From Anodontia alba (Eukaryota > Mollusca > Bivalvia > Lucinida > Lucinidae): a stretch of 64,000 nt of DNA. The notes below the pieces were generated by a model. It was not told where the DNA came from. It saw nothing but the letters and a program-made list of their open reading frames with translations, and did not search any database. The stretch is taken from the NCBI GenBank assembly GCA_964016985.1, contig OZ024825.1, forward strand, positions 2,601,501 to 2,665,500. Reading direction: 5' to 3'. Shown here in pieces: positions 5,555-63,335 of this stretch (the first letter of the stretch is position 1; each line of letters starts with the position of its first letter). The position numbers and the translations under genes are program-made.

Positions 5555-5775
5555 TACAATTAATGTCCTAAAATTTCGAACACTTAATTGTCTGACTAAA
5601 TGGCGTATGCAAACAGTGCAGACCCAGATCAGACTGCCAAAGGAGCAGTCTGATCAGGGTCTACACTGTTTGCCATTCCACTAAGCATTTTAAGAGACAC
5701 CCGCATAAAAAGCAAAATTTAAGCCAAAAAAGTATGGAATTAAGTGTTCAAAATTTTAGGACGTTTACCTTAGTA
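5555..5775. mobile_element. Palindromic MITE, GTCCTAAAATTT family, copy 1
   Basis: The arms ATGTCCTAAAATTTCGAACACTTAAT and the complementary ATTAAGTGTTCAAAATTTTAGGACG flank the GCAAACAGTGCAGACCCAGAT hairpin at 5608-5684. A second copy with the same arms lies at 63107-63335. Confidence 0.75.
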
Positions 5776-5904
5776 ATAAAATTTAGTTTCTGTACAGCAA
5801 TATTGTAAATATTTTTTTATTGATGACATGAGCTGCAATGTGAGAAATGGGCCCTTATCATATATATGGGTAACAAAGGCTCCAATCAGCTGCACTTTCA
5901 TTAA

Positions 5905-6135
5905 CCCATTTTAGTCTGGATACCCCAAAAAAGTGTAACTGGCAAACAGTGCAGACCCAGATTGCAGAATGTGGCATCTTATCAGGGTCTAAACTGTTTG
6001 CGCTATCGCCATTGTTTGCAATAGTTTAGCCATTTTCCTCTAGGAATATCTAAACCTAATAGCCACATGTACCTAAAAATGGAATTTGACTCTTCCAATA
6101 TATAGTGTGGGGGAGTTTATTCAGTCTGAAATGGG
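5905..6135. mobile_element. piggyBac-like MITE, CCCATTTTAGTCTG family, copy 1
   Basis: The element is flanked by TTAA on both sides (5901-5904 and 6136-6139). Ends CCCATTTTAGTCTG and CAGTCTGAAATGGG are inverted repeats. TTAA duplication plus CCC/GGG ends is the piggyBac hallmark. The interior carries the GCAAACAGTGCAGACCCAGAT hairpin core (5942-6002). Confidence 0.8.
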
Positions 6136-6290
6136 TTAAGTTTGATCAGGGTGTTCAGTACATGCTTAATAAATCATTGGATTCTGTAGAATGTATTGAT
6201 GAATAGAAACGACTTTGATCAGACTACACAGAATGAGTTTAGTCTTCACTAGGCACACATACCAGAAGGTACTTTTCTTCACTTAGAGAC

Positions 6291-6510
6291 TACCGTATTT
6301 ACCCTGAGTATTCAGACACCTCAACTCCTTACCATATATGTTCTAAAATTTGAACCAGTACAATTCACTACCCGATGTTGTGTCTAAAAATTGCTAGATG
6401 AGTGGCAAACAGTGTAGACCCAGATGAGACGCCGCATTCTGCGGCGTCTCAGCTGGGTCTATACTGTTTGCTCAGGCCTGTCTGTTCGAATATATATGGT
6501 AAATACGGTA
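6291..6510. mobile_element. TA-flanked palindromic MITE, CCGTATTTACC family
   Basis: TACCGTATTTACC at the left and GGTAAATACGGTA at the right are exact complements flanked by TA. A perfect hairpin lies at the centre: AGACCCAGATGAGACGCCGC, then GCGGCGTCTCAGCTGGGTCT. Partial or diverged copies are at 7870-7975, 8465-8615, 15917-16131, 42150-42340 and 50600-50793. Confidence 0.8.
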
Positions 6511-6789
6511 GTTTGACTTGTGATTGGCAAAAAGGGCACCAGTGATAGGAAAAATGGTACCAGATCATGAATGGTAGAGTGGTGTTAAGGAACCCCTATA
6601 CTTGCAGCAGGTGGGGGATAGGGACATGTTATTCTCTTCTGTTTCTGCACTCTTTCTGCACTGTCATTCACTTTTCCCTTTATCCACTATTTCTCTCTCT
6701 CCTCTCCTCTACTACCTCTTCTATACCTATCTTTGGGAGAGGACAAGAACTCAAACAAACAAGAGCTTTCATCAGAGAGAAGAGCTTGC

Positions 6790-7260
6790 CCGAACATGTA
6801 CCTTAAGGCCATGGGCAGAGAGGGAGCGATGTGGGAGACGTTGCTGAATAAAAATTTGGACCAATATTTAGCATCATACCAAATATATACCAAATTCATT
6901 GTATGGTCTGAAAAATATGAGCTGTTCAAACCTTTAGGGTAAACCGAGTCCATGACCTTGACCTTAAGATTGGCAAGGGCAGTGGGGTGTATTGCTGAAT
7001 TAAATCCTGGACCTATATCTGTCATCATACCAACCATCATATGGTCTGGAAAATATGCACTGTTAAAAACTTTAAGGCAAATCTTTGACATATAGATTCT
7101 TATGTCTGTGACCTTGACTCTGAGGTCATAGATATGGGTGAGGGTATTGCTGAACAGAACTTTGGACTGATGTCTATCATCATACCAATTTTAAACTAAA
7201 TCCATCAAATAGTTTGGAATATATGAGCTGTTTGAACTTTAATGTTAGATTAATTACTGA
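6790..7260 (+). repeat. Diverged tandem array, CATATGGTCTGGAAAATATG monomers, part 1
   Basis: Three degraded monomers of roughly 150 bp carry GTGACCTTGACCTTAAGGTCA, TTGCTGAATAAA, GGACCTATATCTGTCATCATACC and CATATGGTCTGGAAAATATGAGCTG. The same family resumes at 7540-7865 and at 39640-39910. Open frames across it are not supported as genes. Confidence 0.65.
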
Positions 7261-60580: not shown

Positions 60581-61066
60581 GCAGATTCTGCTTCGTAACA
60601 TGTTTATTTATGAGATAGTTACCACTAATATTTTCTATTAGCATTGGTATGCTTTTTTTAGGCTGCACATCCTAATATGGGCCATGTCAAGTGAAGATGA
60701 TGTGTTGGTGTTTTACGCCCCTTTCAACATTATCAAAACAATCACAGTTATACTAAAGACAATTATTTAAGGGGACCCCACCAAATTCAAGTAGAAAGAA
60801 GCTAAAACCTCAATGGCATAAGGAATGCTTATACTCAAAGGGGATCAGTATCTGGTCCATGCCCCGTGAGCATTGATGCATATGTATTTACACATACATT
60901 TGATACCAATGCCCAGTTTCAAAACAGCTTTGAATTTTCATGTACTCTGAGAAGTCAAGGGGTTCCCTTAAATATTGTCCCTTGCATACATAACAAGACA
61001 ATCAATGGGGTGCATTTACCCAATACCCCCCTTGGCACTATGACTTGCATTACAATATACGATATT
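60581..61066. other. No gene seen
   Basis: Unassigned sequence upstream of LINE copy 4. Confidence 0.35.
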
Positions 61067-62193
61067 GTTCACCAAGGCTCAGTACTCAGCCCGGTGCTCT
61101 TCATCATTGTGCTTGAACCCTTATCACGAGAGTTCCGCTCTGGGGTCCCCTAGGAGGACCTCTTTGCCGAATACCTTGTTATCATTGCTGAATCGCTTGA
61201 GGAATGTGTCAGGAGGCTCTTGACTTGGAAAGAAGCAATGGAGAAGAAAGGACTGAGAGTAAATGCAGGAAAGACAAAGAATATGATCATGATCTGCGGT
61301 ACGGGCCTGGACTTCCTGCAGAGTTCAAGCGAGTTTCCATGCACTGTCTGTCACACTGGAGTGGGCAGCAACAGCATCTTCTGCAATGGCTGCAAGCACT
61401 GGGTGCACAAGAAATGCAGTGGGCTCAAGCGCTTGACAAAAGACCCTGACTACAGATGTACATGGTGCCAGGAAACTGCATGCCCCTTGGATGGCAGACC
61501 ACAGAAGGAAGTCCAGGTTGGACCTGACAAGCTGGAGGTGGTAGCTTCCTTTGCCACCTAGGAGACATGCTCTCAGCAGCAGGTGGCTGTGAACTTTCAA
61601 CCACAACATGTGTGGAAACCGCCTGGAAGAAGTTTAAGGATCTCCTACCAGTTCTCTCTCCACGCCACCTCTCTTTCAAAACACGTGGCCGTGTGTACAG
61701 CTCTTGTGTACGGAGAGCAATGCTCCTTGCCTGTGAGACTTGGCCATTGACAAAGCGAAACCTCCAGAGTCTGCAGCAAATGACAGGGCAATGATCAGAC
61801 AGATCTGCAATGTCAGGCCGCAAGACATTGTCACCACCAGGTCCAATGAGCTACTTGTGCGGCTTGGCATTGAGGATCTGGACCTCATTCTGAAGGAGTG
61901 AAGGCTCCGATGGTACAGACATGTGGAACGCTCCAATGGTGCAGTCAAGACAGCCTTTGACATACAGGTTGATGGAAAGCATGGGCCTTGGAGGCCCAAG
62001 ATGACATGGAAGCAGCTGACAGAGAGGGAGTGCAGAAAGTGGAAGCTCTTGACTATCAACCCTCATGACAGACATACCTGGAGATCTGGTGTGAGATCTG
62101 CCATGCGTGCAGCAAGCCAGCTATCTGGAAAGGGGCCCACTGATGTGGATGTTGCCCCTGTACCTGCACGTTAATCAAAAATCCGATTATGAT
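61067..62193 (+). pseudogene. RTE-like LINE copy 4, 3' fragment with PHD-like finger
   Basis: This copy is 5'-truncated inside the RT (VHQGSVLSPVLFIIVLEPLS). Trp of VPWED has become TAG at 61150-61152. It continues with KTKNMIMICGTGLDFLQSSS, then an unbroken Cys/His finger, CTVCHTGVGSNSIFCNGC, KHWVHKKCSG and YRCTWCQETACP. Later parts (KEVQVGPDKLEVVASF, the AWKKFKDLLPVLSPRHLSFK block, MTWKQLTERECRKW) are split by frameshifts and a stop. It ends at AAAATCCGATTATGAT. Confidence 0.9.
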
Positions 62194-62209
62194 ACATGTA
62201 TATGATATT

Positions 62210-62495
62210 TGGAGAGACATGCCTAAATAAACAGTTGCAGACTCCATCTACTGCTAAAGGAGCAGTGGGATCAGGGTATGCATTGTGAGCCATTATGCCA
62301 GTATTTATACATACCATCTGGTAACCAAACTTGGGATTTGATCAAATTTTAGAATTAGTAACGAATGGTAGTTACAGTAGTCACTACAGAATTGATAAGA
62401 TTTTTATCCTGCTATTTTCATTGTCAGACACAAATACAATTAACTCTCATTATCTCAAACACTGATAACTGAAACTACCGCTTAAGTCAAAACTA
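62210..62495. other. MITE remnant, no gene
   Basis: A diverged CCGTATTTACC-family copy (GAGACATGCCTAAATAAACAG, CTGCTAAAGGAGCAGTGGGATCAGGGT) is followed by TTAACTCTCATTATCTC, an end fragment of a mariner-like MITE. Confidence 0.45.
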
Positions 62496-62590
62496 GCAGC
62501 ACAGTGGCTCAATCCATAATGGGTCCGCTTTGTGACCTGGCGGTTGTGGGTTTGATTCCCAACTGCATCAGATTAAAGATTTTAAAAATG
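62496..62590 (+). mobile_element. tRNA-like SINE head
   Basis: AGTGGCTCAATCCATAATGG (A-box-like) and GGGTTTGATTCCC (B-box-like) are spaced as in a tRNA-derived promoter. No target duplication was found. It is unlike the 8035 family. Confidence 0.5.
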
Positions 62591-63106
62591 TATGAGCTGC
62601 TCCTTGGCTTGGCACTCGGCATCAATAAGATCGTACAAAGTGGCAAGGCCTCATAAAAAGGGGAGCTGGTGAATACGAAGCAAAAAGAATCAGCGAAGCA
62701 GAGCAGAAACGTGCACAGCAGAAAGCCAGAGCTAAGGCATCACAACAGAGCTTTCTTCCTCAGACCTCTCTTGTTCTATCTGCAACAGGCAGTTTAGAGC
62801 TAAGATTGGTCTCATCAGCCATCTTAGAACACACAAATGATAACACATCACACAGTTGATTAGGATTGGTCATTGTCAGTAATGACAGACGAACAAGAAG
62901 CATCTATAAAGTACAGCTAGGAATCAGAACTAGTCAACCCAGTATCAGTGCACTGTGGGTGGAATATCAGGTCATGTGTCTGGGCATGACATTTCAGTCA
63001 GGCAGTACTCTAAATGTGAGCATTGAGCTCCCTGCCACACCCAGATGATATGACCGAAAGACTGTTGTAAGTGATGTAAAACCCAAATAAAACAATTAAG
63101 TAAAAA
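62591..63106. other. No supportable gene
   Basis: Unassigned sequence. A 60-codon frame at 62866-63048 has no recognisable family. Confidence 0.35.
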
Positions 63107-63335
63107 TTAAGTATGGTAAATGTCCTAAAATTTCAAACATCAAAAAGTCTGACAAAGTGACATATGCAAACAGTACAGACCCAGATCAGACTGGAGCAGT
63201 CTGATCAGGGTCTACACTGTTTGCCATTCCACTAAGTATTTTAAGCAACAGGTGCATAAAAAGCAATACAGTCTGTATTTAGGCCAAAACAGTATGGAAT
63301 AAAGTGTTCGAAACTTAGGACATTTACCATAATGA
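63107..63335. mobile_element. Palindromic MITE, GTCCTAAAATTT family, copy 2
   Basis: GGTAAATGTCCTAAAATTTC and GAAACTTAGGACATTTACC are the inverted ends. The hairpin GCAAACAGTACAGACCCAGAT, ATCAGGGTCTACACTGTTTGC fills the centre (63168-63223). It is a sister of 5555-5775. Confidence 0.85.

Follow-up and report, generated by a model that had tools for sequence, protein, structure and literature searches.

A hairpin core common to MITE families with TA-type and piggyBac-type ends in the bivalve Anodontia alba

Background

MITEs with TA target sites are of the Tc1/mariner/pogo type, and TA and TTAA ends need different enzymes. For foldback and snap-back MITEs, such as the Angel elements of fish, a strong fold has been proposed to matter for amplification. 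How some non-coding MITEs reach huge copy numbers is an open question. The closest precedent for the elements reported here is provided by the CMITE families of Acropora corals (Wang et al. 2010, PMC2872659). In the part of that paper drawn on here, CMITEs are ~100 bp long, number ~1,600 copies and are all TTAA-type, with a 75-bp internal region that is not described there as a hairpin. Here we describe a hairpin that is present in several hundred thousand copies or more, in at least six MITE families and with two kinds of transposon ends.

The hairpin core and its abundance

The core is an imperfect palindrome of ~68 bp with GCAAACAGTGYAGAYCCWGATCAG arms, lying inside several MITE families. 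In the window, i.e. the whole stretch of 64,000 nucleotides of Anodontia alba DNA that was analysed, a search for the 21-mer arm with up to 3 mismatches allowed gives 25 matches, as compared to 0 in 100 shuffles. Allowing up to 5 mismatches, the arms form 18 hairpins; 17 measure 59-69 nt, and the remaining one, of 118 nt, extends into a tandem array. The core profile finds 23 places at E<0.01. The original prediction of one palindrome in at least four MITE families was borne out, the four named families being present where they had been placed. The following copies were annotated.

5555..5772, plus strand: F1 element, TA-type ends GTCCTAAAATTT, core 5609-5673; outer limits approximate
63112..63331, plus strand: F1 element, core 63166-63224
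5901..6139, plus strand: F2 element, TTAA on both sides, CCCATTTTAGTCTG ends, core 5942-6001
56961..57188, plus strand: F2 element, TTAA on both sides, core 57001-57067
58220..58442, minus strand: F2 element, TTAA on the long side and TGAA on the short side, core 58342-58402
5252..5440, minus strand: decayed F3 element (TTAA/CCCTTG), core 5346-5413; short end approximate
23989..24201, minus strand: F3 element, CTCTTGC short-end variant, TTAA on both sides, core 24095-24162
29656..30097, plus strand: F3 element, short side split by ~220 bp with a tRNA-like stretch (29789-29862), core 29925-29992
32743..32957, plus strand: F3 element, TTAA on both sides, core 32783-32851
33384..33581, plus strand: F3 element, core 33424-33485
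40561..40769, minus strand: F3 element, CTCTTGC short-end variant, core 40667-40734
59513..59815, minus strand: F3 element (59513-59724, core 59619-59686), then an inverted F3 long side without a core (59720-59813)
6291..6510, minus strand: F4 element, TA/CCGTATTTACC at both ends, core 6405-6471
15897..16122, plus strand: F4 element, core 15936-16002; short end degenerate
42147..42351, plus strand: F4 element, degenerate ends, core 42182-42245, hairpin decayed (z -0.21)
50575..50797, plus strand: F4 element, degenerate ends, core 50617-50683
2688..2843, minus strand: old F4-like copy, core 2777-2843
8434..8580, minus strand: old F4-like copy, core 8522-8580
51042..51194, plus strand: old F4-like copy, core 51042-51106
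62228..62380, plus strand: old F4-like copy, core 62228-62290
16276..16333, plus strand: sister hairpin with diverged outer arms (CCCAGTGAAGAATCAGATCAGACTGC)
11986..13018, plus strand: F4-like element whose core/long-side junction has grown into a tandem array (12072-12929)

The F3 end predicted at 29660 was recovered by a 14-mer search at up to 3 mismatches; the core of this copy (29656) lies at 29925 because ~220 bp sits within its short side. Additional copies, at 2777, 5346, 8522, 51042, 62228 and other places, came to light in the window, and additional families outside it.

Genome-wide, the exact 21-mer occurs 21,088 times and the reversed pattern 0 times. In 22 sampled stretches of 10 kb from the window's own 1.86-Gb genome, the density of the core is 5.2 per 10 kb, which extrapolates to ~0.97 million copies genome-wide (0.64-1.33 million). 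The predicted fold is strong in five of the six cores tested, with z from -6.0 to -13.6, and is absent from the sixth, at 42182-42245. A known structured RNA was rejected as an identity, since the window has 0 Rfam matches at gathering scores. A literal literature search returned no paper for six 16-mers and one, unrelated, for six 14-mers; three exact patterns had 0 matches in viral contigs.

Element anatomy and ends

The core search across the genome sample, with clustering of flanks as had been proposed, placed 104 of the 121 sampled copies in clusters and left 17 cores in none. Six clusters have recognisable ends: F1 and F4 are TA-type, and F2, F3, C4 and C6 are TTAA/CCC piggyBac-type. The elements measure ~200-240 bp. 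Median core-to-end distances, including the target site, are 40/106 bp in F3, 40/122 in F2, 39/113 in F4, 54/100 in F1, 40/106 in C4 and 74/104 in C6. Thus the palindrome, originally described as central, is off-centre, usually ~40 and 100-120 bp from the ends. The flanks are not only unequal (~40 vs 100-120 bp) but also differ in sequence, and it is the core that pairs, so that the elements do not fold back as a whole.

Of 36 F3 copies, 20 have TTAA at the left end and 28 at the right; the corresponding figures are 15 and 16 of 22 for F2, and 2 and 2 of 3 for C6. The C4 tally is uninformative on TTAA, its query string having begun one base outside it. The terminal repeats start with CCC in the piggyBac-type family consensus, less clearly so in C4 (AACCNTTTC, 5 copies). 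All 8 left ends of F1 start with TA, as do at least 4 of its 8 right ends, and the F1 ends extend outward to TA/[CT][AG]GTAAATGTCCTAAAATTTC. In F4 both ends were located in 5 of 17 copies; kept ends start with TACC, and those at 15917, 42150 and 50600 are degenerate. The four families had been thought to have unrelated ends, a view that stands for the TA as against the TTAA/CCC kind and fails for F1 and F4, which are both TA-type, have body sequence in common and carry ends that look related by eye. An empty-site search with 63 queries gave three candidates, one of them convincing; the F3 copy 23989..24201 has a diverged empty site with a single TTAA at locus L023.

Among 107 copies found by their distal flank alone, the core adjoins the flank in 101 and is missing from 6. 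The consensus core borders carry no consistent direct repeats by eye, and sister cores sit in other flanks (cluster C7). A favoured insertion site, one of the explanations first offered for the core, was rejected: the core has a fixed internal position, and it is the outer ends of the elements that carry the target sites.

Relationships between families

Flank sequence appears to be partly common to TA and TTAA families in some pairwise tests. Over the first 30 bp of the long side in the same orientation, z values (uncorrected for many tests, with C4 resting on 5 copies and C5 on 4) reach 5.8 for F4-C5, 5.1 for F1-C5, 4.4 for F4-F2, 3.3 for F1-F3 and F2-F3, and 3.0 for F4-C4. These six of the 15 pairs not involving C6 have z of at least 3, and the other nine, F1-F2 with a null result among them, fall below 3. 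Of 30 opposite-orientation controls, one reaches z 3 (F2-C4, 4.3) and two more exceed 2. Over the first 85 bp, z is 10.8 for F4-C5, 4.8 for F1-F4, 4.0 for F1-F3 and 3.8 for F4-C4. The long side of C6 showed no similarity with other families in the pairwise tests, and C6 therefore looks like a transplant. Its short side, represented by 3 T-rich copies with one out of register, resembles those of F2 (z 6.1, 7.8 bits) and F1 (z 3.4, 5.5 bits), so that the case for a transplant is less clear-cut than its long side alone would indicate.

The core tree, built from 79 rows and 68 columns, has poor resolution. With C5, whose ends were not determined, entered as TA, a single TTAA group of cores has a log-likelihood 34 lower and is not significantly rejected (AU p 0.083). 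The inner stems differ among families as paired blocks, and their types cross-cut the end classes. For instance, F2 (TTAA) is 3 edits from F4 (TA) and C6 (TTAA) 2 edits from F1 (TA), whereas 9-12 edits separate F3 from the other TTAA families; between C4 and each of F1, C5, F2 and C6 there are 5-6. Arm A/T asymmetry, mostly lacking in F3, C4 and C6, was set aside as weak proof of a common orientation because the orienting profile had the asymmetry built in.

Substitution patterns

Two-sided changes that keep the palindrome occur in 20 of 31 pairs (12.5 in shuffles) and in 102 cells (35.1 in shuffles). Compensated changes number 16 vs 7.6 expected within F2 and 8 vs 3.9 within F4; F3 copies show 94 one-sided vs 5 compensated changes (2.7 expected).

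For the copy at 33388, the core had been described as better kept than the ends. Among flank-found copies, better conservation of the core holds in 61 of 80 and is significant in F2 and F4. In F3 it is not: there, 20 of 34 copies have better-kept arms than distal flank (p 0.11), and the intervals of the shared rates overlap. Private substitution rates for arms and distal flank, respectively, are 0.032 and 0.027 in F3, 0.041 and 0.026 in F2, and 0.059 and 0.055 in F1, while shared rates are 0.042 and 0.068, 0.056 and 0.207, and 0.005 and 0.051. Copies with arms below 70% identity were left out of the rate test (F3 0, F2 2, F4 1, F1 2, C4 1). In F3, F2 and F1, the three best-sampled families, the conservation gain of the core thus lies in substitutions shared among copies and not in private ones; in F4 (7 copies) and C4 (4 copies), the arms have lower private rates too. 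Since the gain is in shared substitutions, the constraint seems to bear on the lineages that spread and not on use by the host. Alternatively, core conservation could come from gene conversion, and covariation from template-switch repair.

Resident transposons

From 118 piggyBac matches 8 were cut out, and the ends of 3 were compared. The CTCTTGC short-end variant of F3 has 16 and 17 nt in common with the two ends of one of these (L032), and the long and short ends of C6 have 18 and 13 nt in common with another (L036); L032 and L036 have 9 nt in common with each other. Against L032, the match is just 9 nt for the usual short end of F3 and for its long end; the ends of F2 and C4 share no more than 9 nt with the compared piggyBacs. 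The core is absent from both the L032 and L036 loci. At locus L034, a core copy is F4-like and lies outside the stretch that L034 has in common with L033 and L035. For the TA class the search was a count of PF03184 matches, which gave 151, and no partner of F1 or F4 came to light. The original idea that different transposases mobilise the families agrees with the match of C6 and one F3 end variant to two piggyBacs; for the TA side it would follow from the type of end.

Discussion

With somewhat more belief than doubt, we read the core as an ancient part of the internal body of a MITE lineage and not as something inserted anew into every copy, with ends replaced or re-made around it and C6 as a possible transplant. 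This reading draws on the census, the anatomy, the flank similarity of the pairs given above, covariation and the substitution pattern. The ancestral element would have had a short side of ~40 bp, the 68-bp hairpin, a long side of ~100-120 bp and probably TA-type ends, if the order of events is as we infer. While the termini changed, both within the TA class (F1 vs F4) and from TA to TTAA/CCC piggyBac-type ends (F2, F3, C4), the hairpin would have been kept together with the beginning of the long side. In C6 the same hairpin would have acquired ends, along with subterminal sequence, that are related to a resident piggyBac. Transposases would act on the ends in trans, with two different piggyBac lineages serving F3 and C6, to judge from their shared termini. 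The hairpin may raise the element's chance of spreading: cruciform extrusion could bend the 220-bp element so that its two ends meet, or an exposed single-stranded fold could ease excision or copying. A more far-reaching version can be offered only tentatively: the hairpin would be a portable cis-acting fold able to function alongside both TA-type and piggyBac-type transposases, which are unrelated. At least six MITE families would have acquired or retained it for the gain in transposition or copying that it brings, and in this way it would have reached ~1 million copies in one genome and entered at least one other bivalve lineage.

The same data can be read as pure common descent, in which one MITE diversified, its ends drifted and were cross-mobilised, and the core is the slowest part with no exchange of modules. 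The original prediction had itself held one ancestral element with drifted ends against the idea of a module, and the outcome is divided: much of what is seen does resemble a single ancestral element with altered ends. Same-orientation flank similarity links the TA and TTAA classes, the off-centre position is fixed in most families, a single TTAA group of cores survives the tree test, the F1 and F4 ends look alike, and the C6 short side is weakly similar to F2 and F1. However, C6 lacks the shared long-side flank and has ends that match a piggyBac, inner stems cross-cut the end classes, and TA and TTAA ends require different enzymes; we regard this account as doubtful. Unlikely too, and slightly more so, is a neutral origin by gene conversion or template switching among abundant palindromes, which would homogenise the core and restore pairing with no benefit. 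The differences of inner stems as paired blocks, compensated changes at about twice expectation in F2 and F4 and the presence of inverted neighbouring copies (59513-59815) are in line with it, but conversion predicts rarer private substitutions in the arms, which are not seen in F3, F2 and F1, and one-sided changes prevail in F3.

Far less probable is that the hairpin is itself mobile, a nested transposon inserted into many MITEs, as the C6 long side, the unclustered cores and the sister cores in other flanks might suggest. Core-less copies of the host families are rare, though, the core borders lack consistent repeats, proximal flank and orientation are shared in the six pairs above, and some of the unclustered singletons appear by eye to be mis-oriented or old copies of known families. 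We give marginally less credence still to a core kept for host function, such as that of a structured RNA, a source of small RNAs, or a signal in replication or chromatin. The strong fold, two-sided covariation and very high copy number would fit such a role, but in F3, F2 and F1 the arms have accumulated private substitutions as often as the flank has (F4 and C4 differ, on few copies), so that single copies do not look constrained; the fold is also lost in one of the folded copies, and the window is without an Rfam match.

An old body part with replaced ends suggests that MITE ends are replaceable around a conserved body, and a classification based on ends would file such elements as unrelated families. 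With one internal fold across families with different ends, and by inference different transposases, the effect of the fold becomes directly testable. The hard-clam genome paper gives PiggyBac at 0.00-0.01% and unclassified repeats at ~25% (PMC8905726), and elements of this kind may sit among such unclassified repeats.

By description, the present elements have in common with the coral CMITEs TTAA target sites, CCC ends, one family matching a resident piggyBac and tandem arrays. As in CMITEs, the internal region is better conserved between families than the TIRs; in contrast to them, there are ~1 million hairpins in elements of ~200-240 bp, and the families are not all TTAA-type, F1 and F4 having TA ends. 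Like piggyBac-derived MITEs, the families of piggyBac type have flanking TTAA sites, termini that begin with CCC and no coding capacity that could be seen; stretches of terminus in common with resident piggyBacs were seen for one F3 variant (with L032) and for C6 (with L036). To this is added here an internal hairpin shared among families and missing from the L032 and L036 loci. F1 and F4 appear to resemble TA-target MITEs in having TA next to inverted termini. Unlike in foldback and snap-back MITEs, the fold is an internal 68-bp module, distinct from the short terminal repeats, that recurs across end classes.

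Core hairpin in the window

The core, an imperfect palindrome of ~68 bp found inside several MITE families, is a real, abundant and unusual feature. Its 21-mer arm, GCAAACAGTGCAGACCCAGAT, has 25 matches in the window at three or fewer mismatches (0 expected), and arms paired at up to five mismatches form 18 hairpins, 17 of them 59-69 nt long and one of 118 nt that extends into a tandem array. When six cores were folded as DNA, five had z-scores of -6.0 to -13.6; the fold of the remaining one, at 42182, is lost. Once copies are brought into the same orientation, most follow one plan: a short side (~40 bp), the core and a long side (~100-120 bp); longer short sides occur in families C6 (74/104 bp) and F1 (54/100 bp). 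The family coordinates of the original prediction were borne out, including 29660, where the short end of family F3 is present and is followed, before the core, by an insert that is possibly a SINE insertion.

Other features of the window
29700-29924: insert of ~220 bp inside the F3 short side, with a tRNA-like stretch (29789-29862)
33893-34011: near-perfect palindrome, almost loopless
34981-35100: near-perfect palindrome, almost loopless
23733-23830: near-perfect palindrome, almost loopless
26315-26423: near-perfect palindrome, almost loopless
16555-16645: third palindrome family, AAACAGGATTTGA...CATGCAAATTGT and complement
56342-56434: third palindrome family, second copy
18192-22887: long reverse-transcriptase-like frame
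37083-39485: long reverse-transcriptase-like frame
47263-49735: long reverse-transcriptase-like frame
60806-61561: long reverse-transcriptase-like frame

The four near-perfect palindromes are alike, three of them carry the motif GTACTCATT, and they apparently constitute a family other than the core. We take the reverse-transcriptase-like frames to belong to retroelements; some seem to be duplicates of others. A tandem array at 12072-12929, whose 27- and 45-bp units derive from the core arm plus the flank next to it, has a core half on one side and an F4-type long side on the other: a satellite seeded within a MITE.

Families and genome-wide abundance

Families were defined in 308 kb comprising the window, 22 stretches of 10 kb picked by position (18 + 4) and eight loci fetched by the exact 21-mer, a choice that enriches for F2 and F1. 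This sample holds 152 core matches, 126 near full length and 121 with flanks. Clustering of the 121 by flank gave F3 (36), F2 (22), F4 (17), F1 (8), C4 (5), C5 (4), C6 (3 and 2 reversed), C7 (3), C8 (2), C9 (2) and 17 singletons, among them apparent reversed or old family members. TTAA/CCC-type ends characterize F3, F2 and C6 and probably C4, and F1 and F4 have apparent TA-type ends; C5 is an F4-like family. By eye, the F1 terminus (GTTCAAAATTTTAGGACA) is similar to internal F4 sequence (GTTCAAATTTTAGGA), and one F1 copy adjoins F4-like sequence, perhaps as a nested insertion. An even wider family is suggested by sister hairpins whose outer arms have diverged and whose flanks differ (L010_2027, L026_5785, L028_8928 and L024_7674 in sampled stretches, and window 16276-16333).

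In the assembly of 1,862,613,979 bp, the exact arm has 21,088 matches, both strands summed. Exact short-side junctions number 21,785 for F3, 6,806 for F2, 5,913 for F4, 2,916 for F1 and 64 for C4; the C6 arm 24-mer has 19,729 matches, a count in which a perfect hairpin scores twice. Reversed-pattern controls gave 0 matches each. On the 22 stretches the core profile found 5.2 matches per 10 kb, corresponding to 0.97 million genome-wide (bootstrap 0.64-1.33 million), or 0.80 million (0.51-1.10 million) near full-length hairpins, and 0 matches on the reversed sequence pool. Density is uneven, with 11-16 matches in three stretches and none in two. One locus, G000:C1:19215038-19216421 in the window's genome, carries 12 F2 junctions at multiples of 21 bp, apparently repeated in tandem.

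Termini shared with resident transposons

A Pfam search gave 118 matches to the piggyBac domain, of which eight loci were cut out, and 151 to a pogo-type domain, the candidate for the TA class. The ends of the piggyBac at L032 (TTAACCCTTCTCTTGC) have 16 and 17 nt in common with the F3 short end in its CTCTTGC variant, and 9 nt with the usual F3 short end and with the F3 long end. For the piggyBac at L036 (TTAACCCTTAAAGC), the left end shares 18 nt with the C6 long end and the right end 13 nt with the C6 short end, and there is more likeness subterminally (27/38 positions between the C6 short end and the right end). The L032 and L036 ends share 9 nt with each other; for F2 and C4, the match to the ends of L032 and L036 and to the left end of L037 is 5-9 nt long. 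The core is absent from both the L032 and L036 loci. Three further piggyBac copies, L037, L038 and L039, have TTAA/CTCTTTCCCTAC ends and open frames; they are near-identical (98.8 and 99.7% identity with L037 across 2.4 kb) and probably recent.

Conservation and pairing of the core

Pairing was assessed on 34 near full-length cores hand-picked from F1-F4, C4-C6 and five singletons, a choice of intact hairpins that itself favours pairing; 90.9% of cells pair. Two-sided changes affect 20 of 31 pairs (12.5 in shuffles) and 102 cells, against 35.1 in shuffles and at most 21 in slid controls. Within families, changes are mainly one-sided: 94 against 5 compensated (2.7 expected) in 23 F3 copies, 71 against 16 (7.6 expected) in 15 F2 copies and 36 against 8 (3.9 expected) in nine F4 copies. 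Pairing therefore looks maintained mainly along lineages and less in each copy.

In copies found by the core, a biased set, the outer arms depart less from the consensus than does the distal long side in 77 of 88. The expectation that the core is better kept than the ends held in part among copies found by flank, once six with arms under 70% had been excluded: arms are ahead in 61 of 80, significantly in F2 (24/26, p 1.2e-5) and F4 (6/7, p 0.031), but not in F3 (20/34, p 0.11), F1 (8/9, p 0.055) or C4 (3/4, p 0.25). Private substitutions, found in one copy and mostly later than insertion, are as frequent in arms as in flanks in F3, F2 and F1; in F4 (7 copies) and C4 (4 copies) private rates are also lower in arms. 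Substitutions shared by several copies are scarcer in arms. The deficit is clear in F2 and F1; in F3 it is clear only against the proximal flank (0.042 vs 0.117). On balance, these sequence comparisons fit a constraint that would act on spreading elements and not on copies already resident.

Origin of the shared core

A core match, at a permissive threshold, stands beside 101 of the 107 copies that were found by the distal long side alone and retain its core-proximal end, and beside none of the other 6 (six matches without that end were dropped, and matches too near stretch ends skipped uncounted). The F1 (TA) and F2 (TTAA) consensus cores, written by hand, do not differ over 48 outer-arm positions. 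The tree of 79 cores, poorly resolved, does not reject a single TTAA group (p 0.083), yet the inner stems cross-cut end classes: F1, C5 and C6 differ by 1-2 edits, F4 and F2 by 3, and C4 by 5-6 from F1, C5, F2 and C6. The tree requires 12 changes of end class; together, tree and inner stems hint that ends changed more than once, but fall short of proof.

In some pairwise tests, by z-scores uncorrected for multiple testing, flank likeness extends across end classes. In the 30 bp of the long side nearest the core, read in the same orientation, F4-C5, F1-C5, F4-F2, F1-F3, F2-F3 and F4-C4 reach z 3.0 to 5.8, eight other non-C6 pairs 0.9-2.5, and F1-F2 is null; all six C6 pairs remain below 2. Opposite-orientation controls among the six families other than C6 exceed z 2 in 3 of 30 cases (2.2, 2.8, 4.3). 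When 85 bp are compared, eight pairs among F1, F4, C5, F3 and C4 reach z 3.2 to 10.8, with C6 at most 0.9 and F2 at most 2.3, so the F2-F4 likeness is confined to the stretch beside the core. Over 30 bp of the short side, high values belong to F4-C5 (z 8.5), F1-F4 (5.5) and F3-C4 (3.4), and also to F2-C6 (6.1, 7.8 bits) and F1-C6 (3.4, 5.5 bits), both involving three T-rich C6 copies; these last two deserve little weight but count against C6 as a clean transplant.

The data are best explained by an ancient hairpin-bearing element body that would have persisted as new ends replaced the former ones, with a possible transplant of the hairpin in C6. That the hairpin may promote spreading of the elements is the most interesting step of this account and also the least proven.

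Comparison with other genomes and known elements

One contig of a prokaryote MAG terminates in half a core, beside a TTAACCCATT-type end. The half-core is the sole exact 16-mer match in that 1.9-Mb MAG genome, and thus host DNA was likely joined to the contig. The MAG name is consistent with work on gills from Phacoides pectinatus, a lucinid clam (PMC6461927, in excerpt), the code LUC14 being absent from the excerpted passages; we infer a lucinid copy of F2 type. Excerpts of two bivalve papers contain no 'hairpin' or 'palindrom' (PMC10294476) and no 'hairpin', 'palindrom' or 'MITE' (PMC8905726). Judging from portions of its description (PMC2872659), the coral CMITE group is the nearest precedent in the literature searched.
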